DNA of 64,000 nt from a virus, in IMG/VR virus record IMGVR_UViG_3300032331_000874, positions 1-64,000 of that record; one strand, given 5' to 3'. The notes under the pieces are model-generated. The model worked only from the letters and a program-made list of their open reading frames with translations, was not told the DNA's origin and made no database searches. The translations under genes were made by a program, and so were the position numbers. Position 1 is the first letter of the stretch. Each line of letters opens with the position of its first letter. Shown piece by piece: positions 35,001 to 63,659 of this stretch.

Positions 35001-38000
35001 CGCAAAAGTTGAAGCTGACATTAACAAAAAGCTTGAAGCATTTGCTGAAGATCAGAAAAAAGTACAACAGTACTACGAGACATTAAAGCGTTATCGCGGT
35101 ATACAAGATCAGTCCGCTGATGCACTGGTCAAAGTGTATAACCAGCTTGATAAACAACGCCGTGACGTAGAGAAACGAAGAGACGCGTTAAAGCCTAATA
35201 CACCACAGGCACGTACCGCATTGCGTGCGTACAACCAGCAGATTGCTGAGATTGATAAAGAGTTTGAAGAAATGCGCTCTGGGTTTGCATCCAGCGGCAA
35301 AGAAATTGATACCGCCGTTACAGCGTTTGAAAAGAAAATTCAAAGCATACAGAACTTCCAAGATGCTCTTGCTGACAACGCTGCAATAGCGCGTCAACCA
35401 GCCTTGCAATACCTAAAAGACTACATAGGTAGAAACAAAGCCGTTAAAGCTGCGCTTGAAGAAGCTACTGGTCTGCGTAAAGTATTTGATACGTTACAGC
35501 AACAACGCCGTGAGTTTATAAGCAAGGTAGCCGGAGCTAAACGTACAGCCGCTGCTATTGAAGCAGGTCAAGGTAAGACTGCTGCACAACGTATGGCAGA
35601 AGACCAAGCTGCGCTTGCAAGACAGCAAGGTCTTGGGTTACCCGGAACAAAAGTTACTCGCGCTGATATTAAGTCTGATATTGCTGCTGCTGAAGATACG
35701 CTGGCAGAAGAACGTGATCGTCTTGAAAAAATGCGTGACGACCGTGAAGACATGAATACCCGCGAAGGTATTGATAAACAAGAAAAGTCTGCGCTTACCC
35801 GTTTAATTAAAACGGCAGAAGACAAAACTATTCCTAATATTGAAAGTGAGATAGGTAGCCTAAAACAAGAAGCTAAAGGCATGACCGAACCCGCAGTAAA
35901 AGAAAAAGCTAAACCAGAAGGCGCTTTACCCGCAGGTAAACAAGAAAAAGCTAAAGCAAAGTTTGAAGAAGCGTTTGAAGAATTTTTATTAACAAAAGAC
36001 CTTTCGCGTGAGTTTGACGAAGAAGGTTTTCCAATTAAAAAAGTACGTGGCCCTTATACAAAAACGCTAAGCCCACCACAAATTCGCACATCGGCAGCCG
36101 CAGCCGCTGGTCCTGTACGTGTAGCAACTGCTGAACAAAAAGCAAAAGCAGCGGAACGCATAGCTAAAGAAAAACCAAGAAGCGAGATCGACACAACTAA
36201 CACAGGTTGGGAACGCTTTACTAAAAATAAAACAGTATTCCGTGTAGGCAAAGAACCTGCCACACCAGTTGACGCTAAAGAAGCGCAAGCCTACATAGAT
36301 CAGGTTACCAACGAGTTGCCTGATAGCATTAACTTTACATACGCTAAAGACATACAAAGTTTGCCTGAAGAATTTATTGGTTACATGATTGACCAAAAGG
36401 TAGACATTCTGAAAGACGGCGGCAAGATAAAAGGCGGCGTTACGCCTGAAGGCAAAGTGTTTGTTATTGGCGCAGCGCATAAGTCGATGGCTGATTTAGA
36501 GTTGACTGTTGCTCATGAAATTGTAGGCCACTACGGTATCGACGCTATGCTTGGCCCTAAAGGTATGGGCGCGTTGGTTCGTGCTGTAGAACGTGGCGAA
36601 GGTGGTGTAATGGGGTTGGCTAAACGTCTGGGTGTTGAAGAAGGCGTACAGCAAACCATGCTTGCCTATGATGAGCAAATACAGGCAGCTAAAGACCGTA
36701 ACGCATCAGCTAAAGAAATAGCTGACTTGGAAAAAGCCAAACGCATTACCGTGGTGCGTGAACTGGTTGCGTATTCTGCTGAGCGCACGTTTACTGACAA
36801 GGCTGAAGCTAAGACGTGGATGCAGAAAGCTAACAACTTTATTAAAGAAATTGTAGCTGCCCTGCGTAACCGCCTAATCAAGATGGGCTTTAAGTATTTG
36901 ATTACGGCAGACACCAAAGACATCTACCGTTTGCTACAAGAATCTGCGCGGTCTATTGGCGATAAAACAGTTGGCGCTTATCAAACAATTGATGGTGACA
37001 TGGTGTTCCGCCGTGAAGCTATGTATGGCAATACGCCAACAGACGTAAAAAATACAGTAAACGCTGTTGTTAAAGGTCCTACAACAATTGCTGATCGTAT
37101 TAGGTCTGAGGTTACAGGCATTGGCGCACGCACTATGTTTGTTGATCGTTTTGCACCTTTGCAAAATGTAGCCGACTATTTAAAGAAATCATCGCAAGCT
37201 ATGCAGATGATGTACTACGCTCGTATGCACGATCAACGTATGGCGTGGACAGCTTCTACCGTTAATGATGGCGCACCTACGCTTGAGGTAGATGAAAAAG
37301 GTAACCGCATTATTAAGACGCGGGGTGGCGCTAATTTAAATCAAATTGCTAACAAGCTGGCTGAAGTTAAAGGCTACGGCAACGCTGAAGCTGTACGCAA
37401 TTTGTTTACAACCTATTTAGCTGCACACCGTGCCAAGAACAAAGGCATCAACACCCTAAACTTTTCTGGCGCTGTAACACCTGCTGAACTTAAGCGCGTC
37501 ATGGATTTGGGCGACAGCATCCCGCAGTTTGTAGAAGCACGGAAGATGTACAACGAGTACAACAACGGCTTAATAAACTGGATAGCTGAAGCTGGCGCTA
37601 TTGATAAAGCCGTAGCAACGCAACTAACTAAAGACCAAGACTACGTACCGTTCTATCGCGCTATTGGCGACAATGTAGTTATGGAAGTTGCTGGCTCACA
37701 GACTATTACTATTGGCAACATACAGAACCAACCATACTTAAAAGAGTTAGTTGGTGGCGACCAGAAAATTCAGGACTTCTTCACGTCTTCGCTGCAAAAC
37801 ACTAGCATGCTGGTGGATATGGGCTTGCGTAACTTAGCCACTAAAGAAGCGGTGTTCTCACTGCAAGAAGCTGGACTGCTTCAACAACTTGGTACGTACA
37901 AAGGCAAGCCAACATACATGGCTAACGGGCATGGCCCAACGCAACCTAACGTCTTACGCTTTAAGCGTGATGGCAAAGACGTTTACGCAACCGTCAACAG

Positions 38001-39618
38001 CGAATCAATTGGTATTCCCTCAGAGCTTTTGGTCAAAGGCATGCACGGCGTAACAACCACGATTGGTGGCTTCACCAAAGTTCTGGCTGTGCCTGCAAAA
38101 TTCTTGCGTGCTATGGTCACGCGAAGCCCAGTCTACGCAGCCCGTCAGGTTGTTCGCGATTCGATGTCAAACTATTTGCTGGTTGGTGGAGATATGACAC
38201 CCGTGGCTTCTGCCGCAAAAGAATTGATAAACATGTACAGCGGTAAAAGTACAGGGGAGAAGGCGCTGCAACAGCGTGGTGTGATTGGTGGGCAGTTGTT
38301 GACCGGCACATCAGAAGACATGCAAAACATTCTGCTTCAACTAACCAAAGGCGGTTCAGGTTGGGAGATGGCGCTGGCAAAGTTAGACCGCATGCACATG
38401 AAGGCAGATGCAGCCGCACGTATCACGCTCTACAACAGCTACCGCAAGCAGGGTATGTCGGATATGGAAGCAACGCTGGCTACGCTAGAGTCCATGAACT
38501 TTAGTAAGCGCGGTGCTAGCGGTTCGCTGTATGCGTTGAACATGATGGTGCCATTCCTAAACGCACAGATACAAGGTTTGAACGTACTGTACGAAGCGTT
38601 TACAGGCAAGCTGCCTTACGCTGAGAAACTGGCTGTTCAACGCAAACTAATTGCGCGGGGCTTGATGATGGCGGCAGGTACTGTAGCCTACGCAGCCATG
38701 ATGCAGGATGATGACGCATACAAGAACGCTAGCTTGCGTGACCGTTTGCAAAACTGGTTTATTCGCGTACCCGGTTTTGATGAGCCAGTTAAAGTACCTA
38801 TTCCGTTTGAAGTTGGTTTGATCTTCAAGGCGTTGCCTGAAGCTGTTCTGTTGATGAACAAGGACGATGAAGACGCTACTAAAGTATTAGCAGCATTGGG
38901 CGGGTTGGCAGCGATGTCTTCTCCTGTGGGCGTTTCTACGGCTGTGCCACAAGCAGCTAAGCCAGTTGTTGAAGGCGTGATGAACAAGTCGTTCTATAAC
39001 GGCGCTGAGATTGAATCCCAACGTGAGCAAGAGTTGCTGCCCCAAGAACGTGTACGTGATAAGACAAGTGGTGTTGCTAAGTTGTTGAGTGGTGCGATTG
39101 GCGCTGTAACTGAGACTGCCGGTTACCCAACCAAAGGCATCTCGCCAATCATGATCGACCATTTAATTAACGGCTACACAGGCGGTACAGGTCTGGCTAT
39201 TGCACAGATGGTTGGCACATTAGTGCCAGTTGGGGAGCAACCTCCTGCTGCAACCAAGCGCATGTCTGACTTGCCTATAGTTGGTTCGATGTTCCAGCCA
39301 ATTGATGCAACAGGGCAGATCACACAGTTCTACGATAAAGCTACAGAGTACGGGCAGATCAAAGCAACGTACGACAAAATGGTTGCGGAAGGCCGTGATA
39401 AAGAAGCGGAAAAGTTTGCCAACGATTACGCCAAAGAAATTACATTTGCAGATATTGGCAGCGACTTTAAAGGCGTGATGTCAGACTTTACTGAACTAGA
39501 ACGCGCCATCAAAGCTGATCGTGAGATGCCTCCTCAAGAGAAGCGAGAGAAGTTGGATGAGCTTCGTCAGGCGAAGATTGAGTTTGCAAAATCCTTTCAC
39601 GCCGCTTCGCGCCAATAG
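32026..39618 (+). CDS. Giant polyvalent internal protein with HEXXGH motif and LPD38-like domain
   Basis: A 2,530-residue protein that ends the late module, like the polyvalent proteins packaged in virions and injected with DNA. The N-terminus has two EGY-x-x-x-x-I-x-x-x-L helical motifs (residues 8-47). Residues 110-175 are membrane-like. Long charged coiled coils fill about 290-1400. HEIVGH (His1497, Glu1498, His1502) is an HEXXGH zinc-peptidase-like signature. Residues about 2030-2200 resemble an LPD38 domain (DAAARITLYNSYRKQGMSDM, NFSKRGASGSLYALNMMVPF). It could form a channel and carry a hydrolase into the cell; activity is inferred. Confidence 0.8.
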   Translation: MPLNVERALQEGYPLSEIADVLAKETRFNIGKAREEGYNDNDIVDLLSKKRSQAQPQAGFVPAFKSGVEGLKGDIGALGVGANVQGAEEYVKQQREKQAQIYKQPEFSESPVSYLTGLLGQSVPYMLAPAAAGAAAFAAVPAGATALTASIASGLAAGLASATQFTGSNISRQLEAGKAGKDVDVAKAVAAAIPQAALDTFSMRMVPGLGKIFGKAGIEMTEAELEQVAKHGLVSGVADKVRKYGPAVIKTAGAEGLTESAQQVLERAQAGLNLTDEEAKKEYYDNFIGGALLGGTLAIPGHAMERGAARQEAQQKKDERLAKEREAERQKEEAYKQSDEYFVKLDTQFTDLKKQQQDLIAQRGKKPGKDADEDAKTQYNELTNQIKDLNGQLKDVAAEHKAALPRITAIKAEAERQGMTPEEYFLKQMGEKPPEEAKPKEEPTETGMADLVEGKFERVNPLQKQLDQRLQGIRYFDRMKEHAVVARHIAEDPQLAEAFVNGELKIPELNAKDIKTIQKAMPLQLKAIEEERAAEAEKKVGEEKGALFRISENVRAAEDINRRLDSERYALRNIAQDESNPVGINEKLNEIVRLLEAKTKTTVESEVKRAAKPGAVVGRRTAGEGRRTERAPALVLNEETGEYEEQKTPGDAAALRIGPDSELLRMIEQFRVLQQQKGAARDSAELTELAEKIRLAAQPQRNEVIGGPTLEIVSLLEKPGQKSTYIAELDRLSKEQDEAFPAALDAVRAASEYRKNPEAPPLTGTLSAKSGSPEQRIEAESARLDAEERKARGRFTTAVLQEVEANRRANAVPSVTKDEANLIAGRVNNMLQMAAARKFGAPTEAMDVIRDDIAKLVTQYSDVERVKGTPKRVELVGPRKPAATEEVAVEEVKAEPAVEEAAPVVPYNEEPGSFLANFRQFTQTQKEEREEIKKEVKQVTAASKQEGMTAKRALNIVNAHIDAMAAKLETLVNAVRQQRRIAERSGTKSPGYAKVEADINKKLEAFAEDQKKVQQYYETLKRYRGIQDQSADALVKVYNQLDKQRRDVEKRRDALKPNTPQARTALRAYNQQIAEIDKEFEEMRSGFASSGKEIDTAVTAFEKKIQSIQNFQDALADNAAIARQPALQYLKDYIGRNKAVKAALEEATGLRKVFDTLQQQRREFISKVAGAKRTAAAIEAGQGKTAAQRMAEDQAALARQQGLGLPGTKVTRADIKSDIAAAEDTLAEERDRLEKMRDDREDMNTREGIDKQEKSALTRLIKTAEDKTIPNIESEIGSLKQEAKGMTEPAVKEKAKPEGALPAGKQEKAKAKFEEAFEEFLLTKDLSREFDEEGFPIKKVRGPYTKTLSPPQIRTSAAAAAGPVRVATAEQKAKAAERIAKEKPRSEIDTTNTGWERFTKNKTVFRVGKEPATPVDAKEAQAYIDQVTNELPDSINFTYAKDIQSLPEEFIGYMIDQKVDILKDGGKIKGGVTPEGKVFVIGAAHKSMADLELTVAHEIVGHYGIDAMLGPKGMGALVRAVERGEGGVMGLAKRLGVEEGVQQTMLAYDEQIQAAKDRNASAKEIADLEKAKRITVVRELVAYSAERTFTDKAEAKTWMQKANNFIKEIVAALRNRLIKMGFKYLITADTKDIYRLLQESARSIGDKTVGAYQTIDGDMVFRREAMYGNTPTDVKNTVNAVVKGPTTIADRIRSEVTGIGARTMFVDRFAPLQNVADYLKKSSQAMQMMYYARMHDQRMAWTASTVNDGAPTLEVDEKGNRIIKTRGGANLNQIANKLAEVKGYGNAEAVRNLFTTYLAAHRAKNKGINTLNFSGAVTPAELKRVMDLGDSIPQFVEARKMYNEYNNGLINWIAEAGAIDKAVATQLTKDQDYVPFYRAIGDNVVMEVAGSQTITIGNIQNQPYLKELVGGDQKIQDFFTSSLQNTSMLVDMGLRNLATKEAVFSLQEAGLLQQLGTYKGKPTYMANGHGPTQPNVLRFKRDGKDVYATVNSESIGIPSELLVKGMHGVTTTIGGFTKVLAVPAKFLRAMVTRSPVYAARQVVRDSMSNYLLVGGDMTPVASAAKELINMYSGKSTGEKALQQRGVIGGQLLTGTSEDMQNILLQLTKGGSGWEMALAKLDRMHMKADAAARITLYNSYRKQGMSDMEATLATLESMNFSKRGASGSLYALNMMVPFLNAQIQGLNVLYEAFTGKLPYAEKLAVQRKLIARGLMMAAGTVAYAAMMQDDDAYKNASLRDRLQNWFIRVPGFDEPVKVPIPFEVGLIFKALPEAVLLMNKDDEDATKVLAALGGLAAMSSPVGVSTAVPQAAKPVVEGVMNKSFYNGAEIESQREQELLPQERVRDKTSGVAKLLSGAIGAVTETAGYPTKGISPIMIDHLINGYTGGTGLAIAQMVGTLVPVGEQPPAATKRMSDLPIVGSMFQPIDATGQITQFYDKATEYGQIKATYDKMVAEGRDKEAEKFANDYAKEITFADIGSDFKGVMSDFTELERAIKADREMPPQEKREKLDELRQAKIEFAKSFHAASRQ

Positions 39619-50311: not shown

Positions 50312-50595
50312 GTAAACCCTTTCAGTATCTGCTCAAGCAGATCAATGTTGTCTTCGTTAATTACCGCAGCCACACCCTGCGCTGTGCGAATCTTTTCCAT
50401 CTCAGCTTCTTGCAACGGTGTTGGTTTGTTCTTACCAGCCTTACACTCGATAGCAATGAAACGCCCTTTGTAGCAACAGATAATGTCTGGCACACCAGAC
50501 TTACCGTATCCGCCTGTTACTGGGGAGAAGTAATACACGCCCCACTCTTTTAGTATCTTGTATAGCTTGGCTTTTACTTTAGCTTCAGGTGTCAT
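50308..50595 (-). CDS. VRR-NUC nuclease
   Basis: A 95-residue nuclease with GYGKSGVPDIICCYKGRFIA and IECKAGKNKPTPLQEAEM, where the conserved PD...(E)xK residues form the active site and TPLQ marks the VRR-NUC family, which acts on DNA junctions and flaps. It is a stand-alone small version typical of phages. It overlaps the sugar-reductase gene by 4 bp, linking the replication and carbohydrate blocks into one transcript. Confidence 0.9.
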   Translation of the reverse strand: MTPEAKVKAKLYKILKEWGVYYFSPVTGGYGKSGVPDIICCYKGRFIAIECKAGKNKPTPLQEAEMEKIRTAQGVAAVINEDNIDLLEQILKGFT

Positions 50596-51509
50596 GTGAG
50601 TCCTAACAAAGTATCTGCTGCGCGTTTAATGTTCTCCCACGAATCATATCGAGGTCTATAGCCAAACTGTTCTGCTGTTTGGTTGCGCGAATAATAGAAA
50701 GTCTTTAGTCCTGTGGGCGAAACAAACGTAGGATGAGTAACTTCAAACTTTAATCCGTAGGTACGCTTCATGTTCGCCAACAAATCATTCTTAGTAATCG
50801 GCTCTCGCGTGTAGCAATCCAACGCACCGTTAGCCGTAGGTTGAATAAGTATCCACGATAGTAGATGCCCTAAGTCCTCGGGTCCGATAAAGTCCCGCAC
50901 AAGGTTTGTTGTGTCCACAGGCATGACTTCATTATTCTTAACAGCGCGAATCATATTCATCGCCATAAAGTTCAAATTAATATCCTGTGTACCGCTGATG
51001 TAATTAAACACACGCACATCCACTATGTGTTTGTCTCGCAGCGTGCGATGCCTAACCTCTGCTTGATGCTTGGCTAACCCATAGTAGTGCTGTGGTTGTG
51101 GGCTAGTTGGAAACGTAACATTCGTACTCCACCCCGCAGGGTCAATATCAAAAACGTCACCGTACGCTGCACCACTACTAATGAAAATGTACTTGGTGTT
51201 AGGGCGGCGCAAGAAGCGCAACGCAAGCTCGTCATACTTGTAGGTGATAGGGAATATGTCAGCGCCCATCGCTGCTAACTTAACAGGGTCACCTACACCT
51301 ACGAAGTTAATTACCGCATCTACATACCACTGCGTATCAGGCAGCACATGGTAGCCAAACGATAGATAGTCACGCAGTCCTGCCGCTTGCATGAACGTAT
51401 CAACTTCTGCTGGCTTACGCGAGAACAACATCAGCGCGTGGTTATCCGCCAGATGCCGAATAAAATCCTTAGCCATCTGACTTGTCGCACCTAGTATTGC
51501 AATCCTCAT
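50592..51509 (-). CDS. NAD-dependent sugar reductase/epimerase (SDR)
   Basis: A 305-residue extended short-chain dehydrogenase. The Rossmann motif is IAILGATSQMAK (residues 3-14). Ser112 (FISSGAAYGD) and Tyr143-x3-Lys147 (YGLAK) give the catalytic triad. It resembles nucleotide-sugar 4-reductases/epimerases and is the last gene of the carbohydrate operon. Next to an E1-type dehydrase and a TPP enzyme, it may reduce the 4-keto group of a dideoxy or branched nucleotide sugar (a YerF/RfbD-like step). The substrate is inferred from context. Confidence 0.8.
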   Translation of the reverse strand: MRIAILGATSQMAKDFIRHLADNHALMLFSRKPAEVDTFMQAAGLRDYLSFGYHVLPDTQWYVDAVINFVGVGDPVKLAAMGADIFPITYKYDELALRFLRRPNTKYIFISSGAAYGDVFDIDPAGWSTNVTFPTSPQPQHYYGLAKHQAEVRHRTLRDKHIVDVRVFNYISGTQDINLNFMAMNMIRAVKNNEVMPVDTTNLVRDFIGPEDLGHLLSWILIQPTANGALDCYTREPITKNDLLANMKRTYGLKFEVTHPTFVSPTGLKTFYYSRNQTAEQFGYRPRYDSWENIKRAADTLLGLT

Positions 51510-52243
51510 GGCTTCACCACCATTTCTTCTTCTATAGTTTCAGGCGGCAAGAACGGTGTCATGTCATGCAGCGGCGCTTGCTTACCATCCTTGAACGACT
51601 GCGAAGGCAGGACTTGTTGGTCTGGTGTGCAACGGCAGTCAAATATTATTGAATCGTAGTCACAAAACAAAAGATCAAAGTCTCTATTCATGCCTGTCAC
51701 GTCTTCTATAAACATGTAGTTCACATCAAAAGCTGCTGCCACATCTCTGAAATTAGGAAAAAACAAACCTGTTTTATCGTTGACACCATGCACGCGTCCT
51801 TCAAAAAACTTTGACTGCGTGTTTTTGATGCTGAGGTAACCGGAGTTGTTTATCACCACAATCTTAATGTTTAAATAATGTTCGCTAATAACAGCAAGCT
51901 CTTGTATGTTGGACATAAAGCTACCATCACCTACGATACAAATAACTTGTTTAGCTCCAGCCTTAGCTACGCCTATAGCAGCAGGTAACGCCCAGCCCAT
52001 GTCACCTTGCGACTGACTCATCACAAGACGCTGTGTCCCTTTGAATTTGTACGCTTGCGGGACTGCATAGAAAGCTGTACCAGCGTCACACATAATGACA
52101 GCTTCATCATCACTGTGTTTGCTTATGGCATCAAGCACTGCATAAATATTCAGCCCGTTGCTGTCATCTAAATACTCTGGCTGCATGACAGGCCACTTGT
52201 ATTTCCAATGCTCACACTTGGCTAACCATTCATTTCTTGTCAT
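51506..52243 (-). CDS. TPP-dependent enzyme, C-terminal half (acetolactate-synthase-like)
   Basis: A 245-residue protein carrying only the pyrophosphate-binding domain of an acetolactate-synthase-type enzyme: AGTAFYAVPQAYKFKG, QSQGDMGWALPAAIGVAKA, and the TPP motif GDGSFMSNIQELAVIS (residues 105-120) closing with INNSGY (131-136). It begins inside the stop of the upstream gene (ATGA). The upstream gene encodes the missing halves, and together they reach about 580 residues, the length of a whole enzyme. It should work only as a complex with its partner. Confidence 0.85.
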   Translation of the reverse strand: MTRNEWLAKCEHWKYKWPVMQPEYLDDSNGLNIYAVLDAISKHSDDEAVIMCDAGTAFYAVPQAYKFKGTQRLVMSQSQGDMGWALPAAIGVAKAGAKQVICIVGDGSFMSNIQELAVISEHYLNIKIVVINNSGYLSIKNTQSKFFEGRVHGVNDKTGLFFPNFRDVAAAFDVNYMFIEDVTGMNRDFDLLFCDYDSIIFDCRCTPDQQVLPSQSFKDGKQAPLHDMTPFLPPETIEEEMVVKP

Positions 52244-53247
52244 AGCATCCCTCTAAAAAAACTATCGAGCGTTGTTTCTATTTTCCAATCTATTGGAATG
52301 ATGTCTTTGTGCAATTCATGGACTTCAATGTCTACGTATATCTTGTACGCCGTAGGATTAAACTGCGCAGGGTCGTAGCCCACAACAGGTGCGCCAAGCG
52401 ATGTGCCTAAGAACAGTAACAAGTCAGCGTTCTGCATAGCGAAGTTACCTGCACGATTACCACGCACACCGGGCGTGCCGATGTTTAGTGGGTGTGTGTA
52501 CGGTGCGTAGTCTTGCGCTCCATAGGTTGTGACGAACGGTATCTTGAACTGCTCAACAAACTTCATAAACCTTTCTACTTCCCCTGACATCCTGACACCT
52601 GTTCCAACCACAACCAACGGACGCTGTGCTTTATTCAACGTGTCAGTTAGTTTGTATTTCCCTGTAAACATCAGGTACTCACGCGCAACGTATCGCTGCT
52701 CGTACTCAGGCATCTGTGCAGTTTGTATGTCGCTAGGTATATCCAACCACACAGGACCCTTTCTACCGAACTGCGCCTCACCTATGGCTTCCTGCAACGC
52801 CATTGGCACTTCTTCTGGATAGCCTATGAACCGCGCTACCTTTGTCATGGTACGCATCGTTGCCACCACATCATGCTCTTGCGTACCATAGTGGCGTAAG
52901 TTTAAAAACTTAGTTTCTCTCAACCATGTCGTGCAGTTGTCGCGCTTAACATTGCCTGACAGAAAGAGAATAGGCACACCGTCCTGCCACGCGTTAAGCA
53001 CGCTAGTCGCACAGTTAGTACCACCGCACCCTGTTGTGGGGTTAACCACAGCAAGCTCACCTGTGTACTTAGCTTCTCCTATGGCTGCATGCCCTGCGCC
53101 TTGCTCGTTGTGATAGCAGATGTATTCGATCTTCCCATGCTTGATGAAGCCATCATTCAATCCTGCTGCACCACCACCCATCAAGCCATGCACACGCCGT
53201 ACACCTATGCTATACAGGTAGTCTGCTATCCAATCAGCTACTCTCAT
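52240..53247 (-). CDS. TPP-dependent enzyme, N-terminal half (acetolactate-synthase-like)
   Basis: A 335-residue protein holding the pyrimidine-binding domain, with the catalytic Glu48 in ICYHNEQGAGHAAIGEAK, PTTGCGGTNCATSVLNAW, and a central domain (PLVVVGTGVRMSGEVERFM, then LGTSLGAPVVG). It stops exactly where the interdomain linker would be and the downstream gene continues with the TPP domain in the -1 frame. A YerE-like role, transferring an acetaldehyde unit from pyruvate onto a 4-keto-dideoxy sugar, is a plausible reading of its place next to an E1 dehydrase. Confidence 0.85.
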   Translation of the reverse strand: MRVADWIADYLYSIGVRRVHGLMGGGAAGLNDGFIKHGKIEYICYHNEQGAGHAAIGEAKYTGELAVVNPTTGCGGTNCATSVLNAWQDGVPILFLSGNVKRDNCTTWLRETKFLNLRHYGTQEHDVVATMRTMTKVARFIGYPEEVPMALQEAIGEAQFGRKGPVWLDIPSDIQTAQMPEYEQRYVAREYLMFTGKYKLTDTLNKAQRPLVVVGTGVRMSGEVERFMKFVEQFKIPFVTTYGAQDYAPYTHPLNIGTPGVRGNRAGNFAMQNADLLLFLGTSLGAPVVGYDPAQFNPTAYKIYVDIEVHELHKDIIPIDWKIETTLDSFFRGML

Positions 53248-54479
53248 TAAAAATCTCCCATGAACGCAGACACTTTCTCTGCTACGTACTCCAACATTTC
53301 TTTAGTCAGCGCAGGTTGCACACCTAACCACAGCGTGTTGTTCATTACTTGGTCAGTCTTGCGCAAGTCGCCTTGCACTCGATAGTTCTGGCCTTTCAAG
53401 AACGGTTGCTTCGTTGCGTTGCCAGCAAACAGTAAGCGTGTGCCTATCTGGTTCTGGTTTAAGTAACGAACAAACGTGTCACGATCAAAGTCACAGCTAT
53501 CAGAGAGCGTGATAGGAAACCCAAACCATGAAGGCGTAGCTAAAGCATAAACGCCGGGGAACCATAGGTTAGTATGCTGTAGCTTGTCAGCTAAGAACTG
53601 GTAGTTATCCTGTCTTGCTTTAACAAACTCATGCACACGCTCAAGCTGCGCTACACCACACGCTGCTTGCATCTCTGTGATCTTTAAGTTGTAACCCACA
53701 TGACTGAACACATACTTGTGGTCATAGCCTTGTGGTAAGTCGCCATGCTTCTGATCGAACCGCATGCCACATGTGTTGTCACTACCCGGCGAACACCAGC
53801 AGTCACGCCCCCAATCACGGAACGATTCCACTAAACGTAGTAACTCCAGATCATTAACAATGACTGCCCCACCTTCGCCCATCGTAATGTGATGCGCGGG
53901 GAAAAACGATAATGTAGATAAGTGTCCAAATGTACCCACCTTTTGCCCTCGCCACTCAGCGCCCAACGCATCGCAGCAGTCCTCGATTAACCACAGGTTG
54001 TACTTCTTTGCGAACGCTACAACCACGTCAAGATTGAATGGGTTGCCCAACGTATGCGCAATGAAGATAGCCTTAGTCTTTTCAGTAACGGCACTCTCAA
54101 GCATACTCACATCGATGTTAAGCGTTGCATCTACATCCAAGAACACAGGCACACAACCGAACTGAATGATCGGGTTGATCGTAGTAGGGAACCCACACGC
54201 AACAGAGATAACCTCGTTCCCCCGCTTGATCGCTCTGTCTCCCAACTTAGGAGACGTAAGCGCAGAGAAGGCTACGAGGTTAGCTGAACTGCCTGAGTTG
54301 ACTGTACGCACAGCCTTGCACTTTAAGTATTCACCTAGCATGCGTTCAAACTGCGCGTTGTATGCACCCGCAGTCAACCAGCCCTTGTCAACGGCATCGT
54401 GCATGTAGTCTTTCTCACGATCTCCCACCACCTGCCCAGAGGCAGGGATGAAAGTCTTACCGGCTACGAAGTTACTCAT
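53247..54479 (-). CDS. rfbH: CDP-6-deoxy-4-hexulose-3-dehydrase (E1, RfbH/DdhC-type)
   Basis: A 410-residue PMP-dependent iron-sulphur enzyme of the aminotransferase fold that removes the 3-hydroxyl of a CDP-4-keto-6-deoxyhexose. The PLP lysine is replaced by His in SFFPAHHITMGEGGAV (His196/197), and the [2Fe-2S] ligands fit exactly C-X57-C-X1-C-X7-C: Cys169, Cys227, Cys229 and Cys237. Other family blocks are VNSGSSANLVAF and GYDHKYVFSHVGYNLKITE. It overlaps the TPP gene by one base. The partner reductase E3 and CDP-glucose 4,6-dehydratase are not in the window, so the host must supply them or they lie outside. Confidence 0.94.
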   Translation of the reverse strand: MSNFVAGKTFIPASGQVVGDREKDYMHDAVDKGWLTAGAYNAQFERMLGEYLKCKAVRTVNSGSSANLVAFSALTSPKLGDRAIKRGNEVISVACGFPTTINPIIQFGCVPVFLDVDATLNIDVSMLESAVTEKTKAIFIAHTLGNPFNLDVVVAFAKKYNLWLIEDCCDALGAEWRGQKVGTFGHLSTLSFFPAHHITMGEGGAVIVNDLELLRLVESFRDWGRDCWCSPGSDNTCGMRFDQKHGDLPQGYDHKYVFSHVGYNLKITEMQAACGVAQLERVHEFVKARQDNYQFLADKLQHTNLWFPGVYALATPSWFGFPITLSDSCDFDRDTFVRYLNQNQIGTRLLFAGNATKQPFLKGQNYRVQGDLRKTDQVMNNTLWLGVQPALTKEMLEYVAEKVSAFMGDF

Positions 54480-55270
54480 ACTGGCGTTTGGATAGGAGTG
54501 AAGCCGGGCGTTGCTTGTGCAACAGGTGCAGCCGGAGGCGGCATCAAGATGCCATCAAACATGTGAGTACCAACGTGCGCTAACTGCGCCCACGGTGCAG
54601 CCCATACAGTACCGCCGCATTTCTCACGCCACTCACGGCAGAAATGATAGTCCTCAGACAGCAAGCGTTCGCCAGTAGGCTCGATGCTAGTAGCAAAGAA
54701 CTCAGAGATACGCTCCTTACCAATGTTGCCACCCAAGTCATGTGTGTCGTTGATGTAGCTAGGTACGTGGTCGCGCAGTTGTTCAAACACCTCACGTTTA
54801 ATCAGCATGAAACCTGTGCCACCGTTCCATATCTCAACAGGCTGGTCAAGCTGCACCTGTGCTTCACCTGCGTAGCCAACTAAGTTAACAACGAACGAGC
54901 CAGAGTACTTACGCAGTTCATGTGGCGGCACACCAGCAAGCGCAGCTTTGTGAATCATCTCCCAATTAATCTCTTTCTTAGGATAGATACCGCAGATGAT
55001 TGGCTTGTCTGCCAACATCATAGGCAGTACGTCCGCAGGGTTGAAACGAATGTCAGCGTCAATGAACATCAGGTGCGTGAAGTCAGACTTCAAGAAGCCA
55101 TGTGCCAACGCATTACGCGCACGCTGAATCAACGACTCGTTAAACAGGAACGACATAGCTACGTCAATCTTATTGTCACGCAACGTATTCTGTAATGTCA
55201 TCAGCGACTGCGCGAAGTAACCAAAGCATTGGCCGCCGTACATTGGTGTTGCTATAAAAACTTTTGCCAT
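54476..55270 (-). CDS. GT-A type glycosyltransferase
   Basis: A 264-residue protein with the metal-binding DxD motif in FIDADIRFNPADVL (Asp71, Asp73), an N-terminal VFIATPMYGG nucleotide-binding strand, and NGGTGFMLIKREVFEQL, SEDYHFCREWREKCG blocks that close the acceptor side in this fold. The C-terminal 25 residues are Pro/Ala-rich and probably disordered. It overlaps the rfbH gene by 4 bp. The donor sugar is unknown; it may act on the dideoxy or branched product. Confidence 0.85.
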   Translation of the reverse strand: MAKVFIATPMYGGQCFGYFAQSLMTLQNTLRDNKIDVAMSFLFNESLIQRARNALAHGFLKSDFTHLMFIDADIRFNPADVLPMMLADKPIICGIYPKKEINWEMIHKAALAGVPPHELRKYSGSFVVNLVGYAGEAQVQLDQPVEIWNGGTGFMLIKREVFEQLRDHVPSYINDTHDLGGNIGKERISEFFATSIEPTGERLLSEDYHFCREWREKCGGTVWAAPWAQLAHVGTHMFDGILMPPPAAPVAQATPGFTPIQTPV

Positions 55271-55279
55271 TCCTAACTC

Positions 55280-56011
55280 CTAGTATTTAAAGATAGATTT
55301 CTGTAGCCACGGGAATGTAGCTCCAAACTTGTACTGCATATATTCATTGTTACCTAAGAACGTCTCCTTGCTCATGCCTCCTGACCCATCTTTGGATAAT
55401 CGGTAATTAACTGAGTGCTTGCCTGTCGTACCTGTTGATAGCTTTGCGTTCATCAATGCGCGTTGAAAGTTTCTATCCGATACAACAGGTACGTACCATG
55501 CGTGGCTGTGCTGCCTAGCTATCGCTGTACGTACTGCGTAGCATGAGTTGTCAACGAGGTAGTGCCCTGTTGCGTTAGGCTGCATGCCTAGTGACTCGCA
55601 GTTGTCATCACAAATAAAGTTGCCATCAGCGTCAACGATCTTTCTAAAGCTATACGCCCACGCTAGGCTGTGTTCTTCTATCAACGCAACCAAACCCTCA
55701 ATGTGGTCAGGCTCGTACCAGTTGTCATCGTCAAGGTAGAAGATCACATCCTCGTCAACAACAAATGGAGCCATAGCAAAAACGGGAGCCATACCGTAGC
55801 CATCGCCGCCGTTAGCATTAGGTAGATAAACACCTTCCACATAGGGGTAGTCCTCTAATAGTATGTCCACTTTTACGTGGTGCGGTTGACCATGAGCAAA
55901 CACGTAGTGCCTTACTTTGCCTTTGTACGTTTGCTTACGTACACTCTCAAGTGCTTGGCATATCGTGTTTCTGCCTTGCGTGCTAGTTATTACGGCTACG
56001 GATAAGCTCAT
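55280..56011 (-). CDS. Family 2-like glycosyltransferase
   Basis: A 243-residue inverting-type glycosyltransferase. It starts SLSVAVITSTQGRNTICQAL with SVRKQTYKGK, as in GT2 enzymes, and has FYLDDDNWYEPDHIEGLV, the DxD region (Asp94-96). Later blocks include NSCYAVRTAIARQ and VSDRNFQRALM. It is separated from the downstream GT gene by 9 bp and overlaps the upstream fucosyltransferase gene by 4 bp. Confidence 0.85.
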   Translation of the reverse strand: MSLSVAVITSTQGRNTICQALESVRKQTYKGKVRHYVFAHGQPHHVKVDILLEDYPYVEGVYLPNANGGDGYGMAPVFAMAPFVVDEDVIFYLDDDNWYEPDHIEGLVALIEEHSLAWAYSFRKIVDADGNFICDDNCESLGMQPNATGHYLVDNSCYAVRTAIARQHSHAWYVPVVSDRNFQRALMNAKLSTGTTGKHSVNYRLSKDGSGGMSKETFLGNNEYMQYKFGATFPWLQKSIFKY

Positions 56012-56949
56012 GCTGCCACCATATAGTTAAGTAGTGTGTCAACGAAGTGCGCGTTGTAAAACTGCTCTGCGTCCGGTGAAGTAATAAACTTTCGTATGGC
56101 TACGAGGTAGTCCATGTACTCGTAGCTAGGCATGTTAACTAAGTACTCGTATAGTTCCTCGTACGTGTGGAAATCATTAACGTCAACAAAACACTCAGGC
56201 GGTATGTGGTCACGCACGTTATGCGCACCCAAGTACACAGGCACAACGCCCACCATGAAACAATCCGTTAGCTTCTCGCTGATGTAGCCGTACGAATGAC
56301 AGTTCTCATACGCTAAACAGAACCGATAGTTAGCTAGCGTCTTTAGCTTGTCATTGGTTGCGCCCTTGTACGTGGAGAAGTTATGCCCCTGCCAGTTGCG
56401 TCCCCACAAATCAAAGTCCCTCGGCGCTTGCGCTGTAAAAAATCGAATAGCTTCCACACGCTTGTGATATATGCTGAGTGGGTGTGAGCTTTGCTTGTAC
56501 GTATTCATCAAACACATCAGCTTGCGCTTGTGATAGTTCGTAAACACCTCGTCAGGCGTAGGCATGTACGCGTCTTGCAAGTTAGTCGTGAAGTTAGACT
56601 TGATGAACTTGTTGCCATCGACTAAGCGGTCGTCCCACGTAAAGACCTTCTCGCAACTATCAAGGAAGTCCTTGTCGTAGTTGTTAGGGATGATGCTGTC
56701 TGGTTCGTACAGCACAGCGATAGTGCGTGGTGCTTTAGCTTTGATGGTTGTCGGTCTGTCCAACAGGATAAGCAGGTCACCCTCGTCGCGTTGGTCAGGC
56801 GTAAACATTTCTATACCGCGCTCTTTCGCAGCCGCATACAGATCGTTCCACGGACGCAGCAAGCCAGCCCCGATGTCGCTGTCAGGGTTGGTGAACAGGT
56901 AGCCGTTGGTCGTGATGAAATCGTAATGGTTCTGGACTATGACTCTCAT
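56008..56949 (-). CDS. Fucosyltransferase-like (GT10) protein
   Basis: A 313-residue protein with the GT10 C-terminal signature at residues 208-241: YRFCLAYENCHSYGYISEKL then TDCFMVGVVPVYLGAHNV, the nucleotide-binding region of alpha-1,3-fucosyltransferases. The N-terminal half (TPDQRDEGDLLILLDRPTTI) supplies the acceptor domain. GT10 enzymes use GDP-fucose, but no GDP-fucose synthesis gene is visible in the window. It overlaps both neighbours by 4 bp. Confidence 0.85.
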   Translation of the reverse strand: MRVIVQNHYDFITTNGYLFTNPDSDIGAGLLRPWNDLYAAAKERGIEMFTPDQRDEGDLLILLDRPTTIKAKAPRTIAVLYEPDSIIPNNYDKDFLDSCEKVFTWDDRLVDGNKFIKSNFTTNLQDAYMPTPDEVFTNYHKRKLMCLMNTYKQSSHPLSIYHKRVEAIRFFTAQAPRDFDLWGRNWQGHNFSTYKGATNDKLKTLANYRFCLAYENCHSYGYISEKLTDCFMVGVVPVYLGAHNVRDHIPPECFVDVNDFHTYEELYEYLVNMPSYEYMDYLVAIRKFITSPDAEQFYNAHFVDTLLNYMVAA

Positions 56950-57965
56950 ATCAGTACGTACCTATAGACAGGGTTGATGGTGTTGTAGTTGAAAGCGAAG
57001 TTGTCCCAACGCGTCCAGTTGGCAGCGTTGACTAAGTTGGCAGAAGGACAGGCCAAGCTCTCCTCACATTCAATCAGAGCAAGGTAGTTCTTCAGGATTG
57101 GCAGACACGAAACCTTCTCGCCATACCTATGGCGATAGCCTCGATGTCCGAAGGGCGTGATGTTGGTGACTGCGTTGTCTTTATCTACTATGCGTTCGGC
57201 TAGCACGTAGTCATCAGACAGTACAAGTCGGCGGGGTACGCGCCGCGCAAGGGCAGCAGCGTCTTTCATTATTAAATCTTCAGGCGGCAGGATTGTCTCT
57301 GCTTCTAGCTTGTCACCACCACGCAGAAAGATTAGCCCTGCGCCTTGGACGTTGTACTTCTCGTCTTTGTAATAGCTCTTGATCTCGCGCTCGATCTGTC
57401 CGTACATGAACACTTTGAACTGACTGAACTGGTCGATGTGCATGGGTGATGCGGTAAAGATAAAGTCACGCATAGATTCAAAGTGAATCGCTTGCGGGTT
57501 GGTAGGTAGCTTATCGACTAGCGTGAATGTCGTACGGAATATATCGTTGAACGGTTCTTTGTAGTCCCACCATGCGTACGTGTTATCAATCAACAGTTCC
57601 TTGTTGTTCATACGCGCAACGTAGGCAGCGACAATCATGTTATCAATGACTGAAAAGAAACCAGAGTTACGTGGTTGATACAGCATCGAACCAGTAGGTA
57701 TGTAGGGCAGATTAAAAAGGGGATTGCTATCGAATGAAACGCCTATGTACTTGTTGTACTGCTCATCCGTTAGGTTGTAGTGCTTGCACGCAAGCTCCAT
57801 CCCCAAGCAGGAGACAATCTCCTGCTTGTAGAAATGGTTCTTTACTTGGTGTAGAGGAGGGAGGTCGGCAAGCGAAACCTGACCCCACAAGTACTGACGT
57901 GCGTTGATAGCCGCAAGCCTTGCGGGGTCATTGTCTGCCGGTGAGTAGCGGTTGAATTGAATCAT
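56946..57965 (-). CDS. Putative fucosyltransferase-like protein with RGGDK motif
   Basis: A 339-residue protein in which LIFLRGGDKLEAET (residues 211-224) resembles the nucleotide-sugar-binding H/F-x-R-x-G-D-K motif of GT23/GT11 fucosyltransferases. The N-terminus has a WGQVSLADLPPL segment and LLIDNTYAWWDYKEPF in the middle. The C-terminus ends NYNTINPVYRYVLI. The gene is immediately upstream of the GT10 gene and overlaps it, indicating a shared saccharide product. Family assignment rests on one motif and is moderate. Confidence 0.6.
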   Translation of the reverse strand: MIQFNRYSPADNDPARLAAINARQYLWGQVSLADLPPLHQVKNHFYKQEIVSCLGMELACKHYNLTDEQYNKYIGVSFDSNPLFNLPYIPTGSMLYQPRNSGFFSVIDNMIVAAYVARMNNKELLIDNTYAWWDYKEPFNDIFRTTFTLVDKLPTNPQAIHFESMRDFIFTASPMHIDQFSQFKVFMYGQIEREIKSYYKDEKYNVQGAGLIFLRGGDKLEAETILPPEDLIMKDAAALARRVPRRLVLSDDYVLAERIVDKDNAVTNITPFGHRGYRHRYGEKVSCLPILKNYLALIECEESLACPSANLVNAANWTRWDNFAFNYNTINPVYRYVLI

Positions 57966-58157: not shown

Positions 58158-58481
58158 CTATAGATCATCGAAGTCGTCCTCGATGAAGTAACTAGATACG
58201 CGGCTACGCCGTTGCTTACTGTCCTTGATGTCCTCGTTCTTACGGCGCACCGCAGTTTGTACAGCCTTGATCTTTGAGACTTCAGCAGGGGTGTAAACAG
58301 GAGGTGCTTTGAACTTGACAGGGTTAGGCGGTCGTCCTGCGCTACGTGTTTCAATGACTGTCTCTAGCGTTTGGAATCTCGCCTTACATGATTCGCACTT
58401 ACGGTAACGTAACACCCCATCCAATGTAGATTGTTTGACGGTCGAAGTTACCTGCGAATTGCCACCGCACTTGCATTTCAT
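58158..58481 (-). CDS. Zinc-ribbon DNA-binding protein, NrdR-like N-terminus
   Basis: A 107-residue protein with an N-terminal zinc ribbon at residues 1-45: MKCKCGGNSQVTST with Cys3 and Cys5, RYRKCESCKARFQTLETVIE with Cys29 and Cys32. The 'CxC-G-G...RxRxCxxCxxRFxTxE' pattern is that of NrdR zinc ribbons that bind DNA. The C-terminal part is basic (TAVRRKNEDIKDSKQRRSRV) then acidic. It lacks the ATP-cone of NrdR, so it is a stand-alone ribbon, probably a transcription regulator. Confidence 0.7.
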   Translation of the reverse strand: MKCKCGGNSQVTSTVKQSTLDGVLRYRKCESCKARFQTLETVIETRSAGRPPNPVKFKAPPVYTPAEVSKIKAVQTAVRRKNEDIKDSKQRRSRVSSYFIEDDFDDL

Positions 58482-61026: not shown

Positions 61027-62025
61027 TTACATAAGTGTTGTGCTGTCGTGGTTGCCAGACTCGAACAGATCGAATATCCACTCGGCTGCCTCGTCTGGGT
61101 ATGCGTTAACCATGTCCCACATCTCGCCCTCATGCTTCTCACCGAACGATTGCTCAAGCAGGAACGCTGCTTTGTTGGGAGCCATCAACACCCAGTCATA
61201 CAACGCTTTGATGCCACGCTTGTGACAGTTGTGCGCAGCGCGTGTGATCTTGGTGATGTTTAACTTCTTGCCGAACGATGAAACATCAGAGTCATAGATT
61301 GCATAGTCCTCGAACTCGGCATACTCGTCATCGTAGTCACCGAACGCAGCACCGCTTGCTAGACTCTTGCTGCTGTGCTTGGTTGAACCCTTGATGTTGT
61401 AGCCGTAGCTGTCGTTCATACCCCACCCGCCGGTGTAATACTTGTTGACGTTGTTCTTGCGACCATGACCATGCAAGTGTGATGACCACGCATACGTGTT
61501 GGATAACCACGCGCCCTCATGTTCGACGCCTGCGTCATAGTTAAGCACGACACTCTCACCGCTGCTGTGCATGAAAGCAAACTTGTTGCTGTGACCGATC
61601 ATGTCTTCGAGGTACGTCTGGTAGTCAGGGTCAAAGAGCAGCGCAGGGTTAGCTTCCAACGCAGGGCGCAGGATGAACTTGATGAAGTGCCATGTGTCGG
61701 ACTTGGTTTTATCTACTGGGTTGCCCATCGACAGGATGCCGTTGTGCGCCATCCATATCTCGTCAGTTACTTTGTATGGATGACAGTTCTCCATGTCGAT
61801 GTCGCCGTGGGTTTTCATACGATAGTGAATGATGCACTCGCGTCCCTTCAATGCGTCTTTGTACAGCGCATTAATTTCCTGGGGTTTGCCTAGTGTCTTA
61901 ACGACTACGAGCTTGCCACCCTCTGCATACATAGCACCGAAACCGTCAGAGTTGTGTGCATAAAAGTCGTTGAGCAATTCGTCGCTGAATGATACGTTTG
62001 ATGGATGATGAATAAGAATACACAT
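61027..62025 (-). CDS. Class II glutamine amidotransferase
   Basis: A 332-residue Ntn-type hydrolase that releases ammonia from glutamine. The N-terminal Cys2 nucleophile follows the initiator Met (MCILIHHPSN). The family motifs are HNSDGFGAMY (residues 24-33), IIHYRMKTHGD (65-75) and WMAHNGILSMGNP (91-103). The C-terminal half is a less conserved Tyr/Asp/Gly-rich region (about 180-260) of unknown fold. It is 26 bp downstream of the amidoligase gene, suggesting ammonia or amide transfer in the same pathway. Confidence 0.93.
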   Translation of the reverse strand: MCILIHHPSNVSFSDELLNDFYAHNSDGFGAMYAEGGKLVVVKTLGKPQEINALYKDALKGRECIIHYRMKTHGDIDMENCHPYKVTDEIWMAHNGILSMGNPVDKTKSDTWHFIKFILRPALEANPALLFDPDYQTYLEDMIGHSNKFAFMHSSGESVVLNYDAGVEHEGAWLSNTYAWSSHLHGHGRKNNVNKYYTGGWGMNDSYGYNIKGSTKHSSKSLASGAAFGDYDDEYAEFEDYAIYDSDVSSFGKKLNITKITRAAHNCHKRGIKALYDWVLMAPNKAAFLLEQSFGEKHEGEMWDMVNAYPDEAAEWIFDLFESGNHDSTTLM

Positions 62026-62051
62026 AGTTAGTTCTCCTTTAAGTGGTTGGA

Positions 62052-63659
62052 TTACGACATGATGCCTTGCAGTTTGAGATGCTTGCGTAAATGCTTTGTC
62101 TCGCTGCGTTGTGATGATGAATCGATGAAGTCTAAGAAGCGTGGTGTTGATAGATGAAACCCTGCCGGTGAGGCTGGCATGGTGAAGTTGACTACTGCAT
62201 TAGCAAACTCGATAGCAGACAACAGCGTGTCATACACAAGCGTACCCTTGAAGATACGAAACTCGACAGTCTGATCGTTGGTAATGTTCAATGCATCGCG
62301 GCGTTCAACGTCATACTTGTGTGCGGTAGACAAACGCTTACGTGCTATGCGTGCATAGTTGACGTTGTACCTACGTGCTACTGCTTTGACTAGCTCATGG
62401 TTGTCAGGATGATTCAAGAAGACATTCATCTTGTTAAGCTGCATGACGTGCATATTCTTACGACTGACATGCACATGCAGACCACACGTTGACGTGTCAT
62501 GCGAACGCATACCACGCGTCAAGTCACGATCATTTAACGCAGACCATAACTCGTAATGACTGTCTAAGCCCATCGGATTAGTGATGATCTCAAAGCCATG
62601 CGTCAATGAACCGTCAGCCTCGAAGTACACACGCTTGCCTACCTCACCATCGTTGAGCTTGGCGTTCAATACTTCAACGTGGTCATCGATGCTGCCATCC
62701 TTGACCTCGACCTCAAGCTCTACGCCCATGAAGCGGTCGTTGCGTTGTGTCCATACTGAATGAAGGAAGGGTTGCTTACCGACACGCGAACGATTGTGAT
62801 AGCTGCCAAGTAACTGCGGCTTTCTGCCCTCGTATTCGTAATGAATGTAAGCATCCTCGTCATCATCCCAATGGAAATCATCGTCATCCTCGTGGACATA
62901 CACCTCGTCACCGTCTCGGTCTAACGCCCAACGACCGCTGTCTGTGTACACGTATTCGCTGTAGTGTTCCGAGTAGCGATAGTTGTTGTCGATACATGAG
63001 TCGCACACGTTGTCGGTGCTATCGTACGGCGTACGCATCAAGTCCTCATGTGCGTAGTTGCAGCAGTCAGAGCAAGAGTGGTAACCGTTGCTTTGCAATA
63101 TCTCCTCGACCTCATCGCGGTCGTTCTCTGCGTGGTTGACTAAAATGGTAGCTATCTCGCTGCGTTTGTTGCGTGATAAGGCGCTGTTGCTCAAGTCACC
63201 GCCTTGTATGTGCCACACCGTTGTGAGTAGACCGTATCCCGTGTTCTCTGCGATCTCATCAAGCGGCTGCCGCATTACGCCGTTCAATAGTTTACGCATG
63301 ACAGAGTGGAGCGCTTGTTCTACTGTGTTGCCGTACCGCAGCTCGCTTATCTGCACCCTGATACGAATAGTCATGGGTTGAAATACCAAGTTAACGAAGG
63401 CATACGCTGCGCTCTTGCTGCCGAAGTCGCCACGCTCAACAAGTCTGGCTACTGCATTGAAGAACGCCTCAAGTCTGTCGCGTGCTGCTAAACGTACGTC
63501 TTCTGGATAGACTTGGCGTGGGTCGGGGTTGTCGTGCATGAGCGCATAGGTAGAGGTCATAACTACCAGTAGCGCGTGTTCCAAGCGGTTAATGTAGCCG
63601 CTTTCTGGTTGGGGTTGAGCTACAGTAAAAAAGTCATACTGTGACGATGATTGTGTCAT
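62052..63659 (-). CDS. Amidoligase family protein
   Basis: A 535-residue protein. The C-terminal half has the amidoligase (glutamine-synthetase-like fold) pattern: RFMGVELEVEV (309-319), YFEADGSLTHGFEIITNPMG (345-364), CGLHVHVSRKNM (392-403) and TVEFRIFKGTL (464-474). These carry the Glu, His and Arg expected to bind ATP and metal. The middle (195-275) has a Cys cluster (CSDCCNYAHE, VCDSCIDNN) that may bind zinc, followed by an acidic segment. The family forms amide bonds on peptides or cell-wall components. Its substrate is unknown. Confidence 0.88.
   Translation of the reverse strand: MTQSSSQYDFFTVAQPQPESGYINRLEHALLVVMTSTYALMHDNPDPRQVYPEDVRLAARDRLEAFFNAVARLVERGDFGSKSAAYAFVNLVFQPMTIRIRVQISELRYGNTVEQALHSVMRKLLNGVMRQPLDEIAENTGYGLLTTVWHIQGGDLSNSALSRNKRSEIATILVNHAENDRDEVEEILQSNGYHSCSDCCNYAHEDLMRTPYDSTDNVCDSCIDNNYRYSEHYSEYVYTDSGRWALDRDGDEVYVHEDDDDFHWDDDEDAYIHYEYEGRKPQLLGSYHNRSRVGKQPFLHSVWTQRNDRFMGVELEVEVKDGSIDDHVEVLNAKLNDGEVGKRVYFEADGSLTHGFEIITNPMGLDSHYELWSALNDRDLTRGMRSHDTSTCGLHVHVSRKNMHVMQLNKMNVFLNHPDNHELVKAVARRYNVNYARIARKRLSTAHKYDVERRDALNITNDQTVEFRIFKGTLVYDTLLSAIEFANAVVNFTMPASPAGFHLSTPRFLDFIDSSSQRSETKHLRKHLKLQGIMS

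Follow-up and report, generated by a model that had tools for sequence, protein, structure and literature searches.

The window analysed here comprises 64,000 bases of the 64,045-base virus record IMGVR_UViG_3300032331_000874 and carries, on its minus strand, a block of genes for a predicted branched sugar. Within the block lie an E1 (RfbH-type) 3-dehydrase, a thiamine diphosphate enzyme (ThDP or TPP enzyme) encoded by two genes, and a short-chain dehydrogenase/reductase (SDR). An earlier reading of the same DNA (hereafter the original prediction) had placed an E1, a TPP enzyme and, next after it, an SDR reductase at 50592-54479; our gene calls agree with these coordinates and this order, and put all of the genes on the minus strand. 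The core features are:

53247..54479, minus strand: E1, RfbH-type [2Fe-2S] 3-dehydrase, 410 amino acids (NCBIfam RfbH, alignment with 3bcx, conserved Cys and His)
52240..53247, minus strand: TPPn, PYR and central domains of a split YerE-like ThDP enzyme, 335 amino acids (Pfam TPP_enzyme_N and _M; 8rph)
52240..52243, minus strand: ATGA stop/start overlap between TPPn and TPPc (identical junction in 12/12 clade members)
51506..52243, minus strand: TPPc, PP domain of a split YerE-like ThDP enzyme, 245 amino acids (Pfam TPP_enzyme_C; 8rph)
50592..51509, minus strand: SDR, probable side-chain ketoreductase, 305 amino acids (Pfam Epimerase, YxxxK, place in bacterial operons)

Because the same block recurs in about 24 related phage contigs (contig counts include fragments), chance co-location of these genes is excluded.

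The phage E1 scored 640.7 bits against the NCBIfam RfbH equivalog, for which the cut-off is 423, and 532 bits against the solved E1 3bcx, aligning over its length. This alignment pairs the iron-sulfur motif C-X57-C-X1-C-X7-C (Cys169/227/229/237) with Cys193/251/253/261 of 3bcx, and His196, in place of the pyridoxal phosphate lysine, with His220. The four cysteines are kept across the phage clade wherever aligned, the sole deviation among 80 bacterial homologues being one Ser at position 237, and the active-site His is kept in 25/25 phage clade members and 80/80 bacterial sequences. The bacterial comparison set consists of the 80 loci nearest to the phage E1 and is not a random sample. Separately, L056 was excluded from the analysis, its reading frames being broken throughout. 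In our tree, a quick search with some long branches, the 24 phage E1 sequences grouped as a single, fully supported clade. The exact cysteine motif and the His replacement claimed in the original prediction are thus borne out by alignment and conservation, and with its equivalog score and all catalytic residues the phage E1 is, judged by its sequence, intact.

The ThDP enzyme downstream had been described as resembling acetolactate synthase and overlapping E1. A TPP enzyme does lie there, but it occupies two genes, the first with the PYR and central domains and the second with the PP domain (Pfam), and it falls in the YerE-like class. Both halves have as their top PDB match 8rph, the structure of JanthE; this YerE-like enzyme joins 2-oxo acids to ketones (PMC12188165; JanthE and YerE biochemistry is given in PMC12188165 and PMC12247030). 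It outscores acetohydroxyacid synthase (AHAS) I in each half, for TPPc by 129 bits against 81 for the E. coli enzyme. The catalytic Glu of TPPn and the GDG...NN of TPPc are retained in 12/12 clade members. An orthologue of JanthE in Duganella (L088, 1186 bits) lies inside an RfbF-RfbG-E1-ThDP-SDR operon, as does an orthologue in Pseudomonas (L079, 880 bits) of 5ahk, which we take to be PpYerE. A tree of 81 sequences set the E1-linked enzymes apart from E. coli IlvI, IlvB, Gcl and PoxB (96% support in the Shimodaira-Hasegawa-like approximate likelihood ratio test, SH-aLRT), these four being its only outgroups and the tree a quick search with some long branches. Grouping with catabolic acetolactate synthases had been named beforehand as an outcome that would refute the proposal; by PDB matches, orthologues and tree the halves instead group with JanthE and PpYerE, and the proposal passes this check. 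We file the pair as a putative split variant of the YerE-like enzymes and not as a standard member.

The split of this phage gene is real and conserved. A sequencing frameshift was rejected as its origin, since the ATGA junction is common to 12/12 clade members and the same form (N and M domains in one gene, C in the next; N+M/C) was found in 44/48 further viral loci. A -1 frameshift joining the halves was likewise rejected by inspection of the 12 junctions, where a conserved slippery site is absent and most second starts have a GGAG-like site upstream. Mapped with a profile built from 24 bacterial enzymes, the phage splits fall at domain borders: N+M/C in the window group, L026, L050 and L060, N/M+C in about 16 other phage loci, and N/M/C in L038/L039. 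All 43 of the 43 bacterial E1 loci with both parts have a fused single gene. The tree requires at least four changes, phage YerE-like genes having been cut at domain borders at least that often, and a single origin for all phage splits was rejected by the approximately unbiased test (p=0.0004, to be read with the caveat of long branches).

The same N+M/C form turned up, in a further scan, on contigs from fresh water; those checked are T4-like, with gp44- and gp45-type genes in L237. These contigs and the window group form one clade (100% SH-aLRT; a quick search with some long branches), and all 42 of the 42 readable E1s from the freshwater contigs retain the His and the four Cys. The ratio of nonsynonymous to synonymous substitution is well below 1 in both ThDP halves, indicating purifying selection. 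The half-gene trees conflict for the window, its C half being sister to L002 (100/97) and its N half not, and this disagreement suggests that the ThDP halves recombine.

Several loci outside the window group depart from a simple two-gene layout. In L038 (7380-9009) the YerE-like enzyme is present as three genes of one domain each, and in L033 (9139-10187) a phage YerE-like pair has N and C domains with the central M domain absent. In the T4-like phage L237 (7830-8995), a pair of small proteins of 207 and 180 amino acids, E1_dh and Transket_pyr, is encoded between E1 and the split YerE, a candidate extra ThDP branching enzyme of keto-acid-dehydrogenase type; such pairs are possibly further variants of the genes found between E1 and SDR. 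Another phage of the T4-like group, L215 (7834-9000), has a class I/II aminotransferase between E1 and the split YerE, which might supply a 2-oxo acid donor.

The SDR matches only a general profile, Pfam Epimerase; Y143 and K147 of its YxxxK motif are invariant across 11 phage SDRs, and it holds the same position in bacterial E1-ThDP-SDR operons. The slot between E1 and SDR is not constant. Within the phage clade it is filled by a split YerE, by a fused YerE (L006, L008, L009, L011, L016 and L022) or by a split transketolase pair (L012, L015, L017 and L020). Slot type needs 7 changes on the E1 tree, where the minimum is 3, and the phage SDRs form one clade (100/98) within which slot types are mixed. 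L016 and L020 share 97% identity as far as the end of E1, are wholly different across the slot, and return to 87% identity at the SDR start. Over the stretch between 41,448 and the SDR start codon, the closest relative found, L150, shares 88-91% nucleotide identity with the window; past that codon it has a transketolase pair, within which the contig ends, so that its E1 is not seen. Bacteria alternate in the same way, with E1-YerE-SDR in six loci and E1-tktN-tktC-SDR in five (L073, L074, L080, L086 and L096); a transketolase pair lies near E1 in 15 of the 80 bacterial E1 loci (L065-L144), in several phyla and beyond Streptomyces.

We infer that either slot enzyme, YerE or transketolase, would produce a branch bearing an alpha-hydroxy ketone, so that the shared SDR would have one consistent role as ketoreductase. 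For split transketolases a sugar-branching role has been proposed only (PMC12247030); the transketolase swap in close relatives probably builds a different branch. A broader reading, tentative and somewhat short of probable, is that lytic phages run an exchangeable branched-sugar factory in which E1 and SDR form a fixed frame, the carbon-carbon bond enzyme is swapped, each kind building a different branch on the same sugar so that the phage-made glycan varies like an antigen, and the cut half-enzymes recombine too.

Taken with its glycosyltransferases, the block probably encodes the distal half of a yersiniose-type nucleotide-sugar pathway. The host would provide CDP-4-keto-6-deoxyglucose (through RfbF and RfbG) and the reductase that drives E1, and the phage E1 would take off the 3-hydroxyl. 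The two ThDP subunits would form a YerE-like enzyme that transfers an acyl group, drawn from pyruvate or another 2-oxo acid, to the C4 ketone, and the SDR would reduce the new side-chain ketone to give a 4-C-branched 3,6-dideoxyhexose. The glycosyltransferases of the phage, of which two resemble fucosyltransferases, would then put the branched sugar into a glycan, most likely on the infected cell surface. The assignment to the distal half, already made in the original prediction, is strengthened by the YerE-like classification and by the same gene order in the RfbF-RfbG-E1-YerE-SDR operons that contain the orthologues of JanthE and PpYerE. Gene identities, intact motifs, operon, synteny and purifying selection can be read from the sequence itself; the sugar class of the product is well supported, and the substrates, the product and the assembly of the ThDP halves are likely as set out here.

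Several observations weigh against this pathway. The 64,045-base record lacks RfbF, RfbG and any E3-type reductase domain, as had been noted for E3 and the 4,6-dehydratase, so the route would rely on host supply. The reductase step is described as uncharacterised even in Yersinia (PMC4753412). L018 has E1 and a split YerE with no adjoining SDR, and L019 has E1 with no adjoining ThDP gene. RfbF and RfbG were not found in the clade relatives either, where weak matches to the RfbG model in four phages are their GMD genes, and the E3-type domain (NAD_binding_1) was found in 0/41 phage records. E3 lies near E1 in only 9/80 bacterial loci, so a partner encoded elsewhere is usual and the absence of E3 from the phages is not odd. 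The nucleotide of the sugar may be CDP or GDP; a CDP sugar is supported by two more distant E1 phages, L023 and L030, which carry RfbF and RfbG at equivalog level; RfbF and RfbG also adjoin E1 in 70/80 bacterial loci, indirect support for a CDP-4-keto-6-deoxyhexose substrate.

The plus strand of the window holds the structural genes, and beyond about 39,800 the genes lie mostly on the minus strand (gene calls, Pfam), where a DNA polymerase, a SNF2 helicase and nucleases accompany the sugar block. In order of transcription the block reads FUT8-like, GT10, GT2-like, GTa, E1, TPPn, TPPc, SDR and an Hjc-like nuclease gene. Neighbouring genes overlap by 1-4 bases at every junction but GT2/GTa, where AGGAG stands upstream of the start. 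GC content stays at 0.45-0.51 throughout the region, so the block bears no mark of recent import. The four glycosyltransferase-like genes are:

56946..57965, minus strand: FUT8/NodZ/POFUT1-like fold, probable GDP-sugar glycosyltransferase with an RGGDK motif (Foldseek)
56008..56949, minus strand: GT10 fucosyltransferase-family protein (Pfam Glyco_transf_10, 65.7 bits)
55280..56011, minus strand: GT2-like glycosyltransferase (Pfam Glycos_transf_2)
54476..55270, minus strand: GTa, GT-A fold glycosyltransferase-like protein, phrog_1574 (fold similarity)

The first of these had no Pfam match; its top Foldseek matches are FUT8, NodZ and POFUT1 with TM-scores <0.5, a fold-level hint only. GT10 adjoins gmd and fcl in four relatives with GMD and fucose synthase (L008, L009, L011 and L017). 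The GT10 gene, the FUT8/NodZ-like fold and the GMD and fucose synthase of the relatives point to a glycan that may also contain fucose. The genes gmd, fcl, GT10, RfbF, RfbG and E1 occur together in L068, L075 and L096, all bacterial, and in this respect the phage genes look like those of a bacterial surface-polysaccharide locus. No tyrosine integrase was found in 24 phage records. Thymidylate synthase-like, hydroxymethylase, DNA methylase and TET families were absent among the window Pfam hits, many window genes being of no known family. Because of the likeness to polysaccharide loci and the lack of an integrase and of DNA-modification families, we place the glycan on the host rather than on virion or DNA, with modest confidence: we lean, weakly, towards a glycan attached to the surface of the infected cell, and only tentatively suggest that it might exclude later phages. 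The rebuilding of host O-antigen or capsule against later phages, put forward in the original prediction, is thus a plausible reading.

The same sugar pathway might instead furnish a glycan on the phage's own virion proteins, for example shielding them or tuning adsorption. The glycosyltransferases are small, the Pfam scans of the window turned up no Gtr-type flippase family, and GTa is distantly similar in fold to protein glycosyltransferases; this placement is nonetheless doubtful, as the block lies in the minus-strand half with the replication genes, away from the structural genes, and the bacterial loci that share its gene combination look like surface-polysaccharide loci. Attachment of the sugar to phage DNA, as an anti-restriction hypermodification, is improbable. 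Phages are known to glycosylate DNA and the block adjoins replication genes, but the window Pfam hits include no DNA-modification family, a result that is not final given the many genes without a known family. It is similarly improbable that the product is unbranched, with E1 and the SDR making a plain 3,6-dideoxyhexose of the abequose or paratose type and the ThDP genes acting elsewhere. The synthesis of abequose and paratose also uses SDRs, to reduce the C4 ketone, and the general Epimerase match would fit such a role; most clade members, and likewise the bacteria, however, have a ThDP enzyme of one of the two kinds between E1 and the SDR. That the ThDP pair is an acetolactate synthase for branched-chain amino acids, beside E1 by chance, is barely plausible and was rejected: its best curated NCBIfam matches are AHAS models, but at 158 and 100 bits they are far under the TIGR00118 cut-off of 538, JanthE ranks ahead of AHAS I in both halves, the tree places the pair elsewhere, a transketolase pair replaces it in the same slot, and the window Pfam scans found no ACT-domain regulatory subunit.

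Other features of the window lie outside the block. Just upstream of it, at 58158-58481 (minus strand), is a small protein with an NrdR-like zinc ribbon, with relatives in L005, L007 and L010. A class-II glutamine amidotransferase-like gene stands beside an amidoligase-like gene at 61027-63659 (minus strand; Pfam GATase_4, Amidoligase_2), a possible peptide- or wall-modifying pair. The late plus-strand block includes a 2530-amino-acid gene (32026-39618), probably the source of the window Pfam match to LPD38 (large polyvalent protein). No tRNA genes, sought as a host clue, were found in the window, nor did it match any defence-system model. The nearest TerL relatives among isolated phages infect Pelagibacter, cyanobacteria and a gammaproteobacterium; the phage group with these distal branched-sugar steps consists of aquatic phages.

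Beyond the original prediction, our analysis adds the exchange of the middle enzyme, its recurrent splitting and the link to fucose. O-antigen nucleotide-sugar genes including RfbH have already been listed in phages (PMC11295528, PMC10980836). We found no description, in the literature searched, of a phage yersiniose or YerE-type module, of split YerE-like enzymes or of YerE-transketolase exchange, an absence that is not proof. Viral ilvB has been counted as an auxiliary gene of amino-acid or butanoate metabolism, in a table that also lists rfbG, gmd and fcl (PMC8226683); this is likely an annotation error in such cassettes, where ilvB, and transketolase that would be read as pentose-phosphate, are probably sugar-branching enzymes. 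Ketone-accepting transketolases have been named as a gap in tertiary-alcohol biocatalysis (PMC12247030), and natural two-chain YerE-like enzymes and E1-linked split transketolases from outside Streptomyces are now supplied. The two near-identical phages with different slots make arms-race variation of a glycan directly testable.

Phage alteration of host sugars is usually seen as the moving of common sugars; here a rare branched sugar is apparently made, with its branch chemistry varied by gene replacement. Like the O-antigen conversion modules (GtrABC and relatives), the block consists of phage genes that may alter a host surface glycan; unlike them, it would make a new sugar nucleotide, and neither a Gtr family nor a tyrosine integrase was found. 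The closest pathway is that of yersiniose A in Yersinia pseudotuberculosis, in which E1, a YerE-like ThDP enzyme and a reductase likewise give a 4-C-branched 3,6-dideoxyhexose; the present set differs in being phage-borne, in its two-gene ThDP enzyme, in lacking RfbF, RfbG and E3, in the fucosyltransferase-type enzymes alongside, and in having a product predicted from genes. JanthE (8rph), the best solved relative of both phage halves, and PpYerE (5ahk) both have orthologues in RfbF-RfbG-E1-YerE-SDR operons. These bacterial enzymes are single chains, whereas the phage enzyme comprises 335 and 245 amino acids and is about one third identical to its bacterial relatives; JanthE has CDG where the phage TPPc has GDG. 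The split transketolases of miharamycin and amipurimycin biosynthesis, for which a two-carbon addition to a keto sugar is proposed (PMC12247030), are matched by the pairs that replace the split YerE in L012, L015, L017, L020 and L150. That review lists sequences from Streptomyces only, whereas the pairs described here, set between E1 and the SDR, come from phages and from a diverse range of bacteria, most of them Gram-negative.

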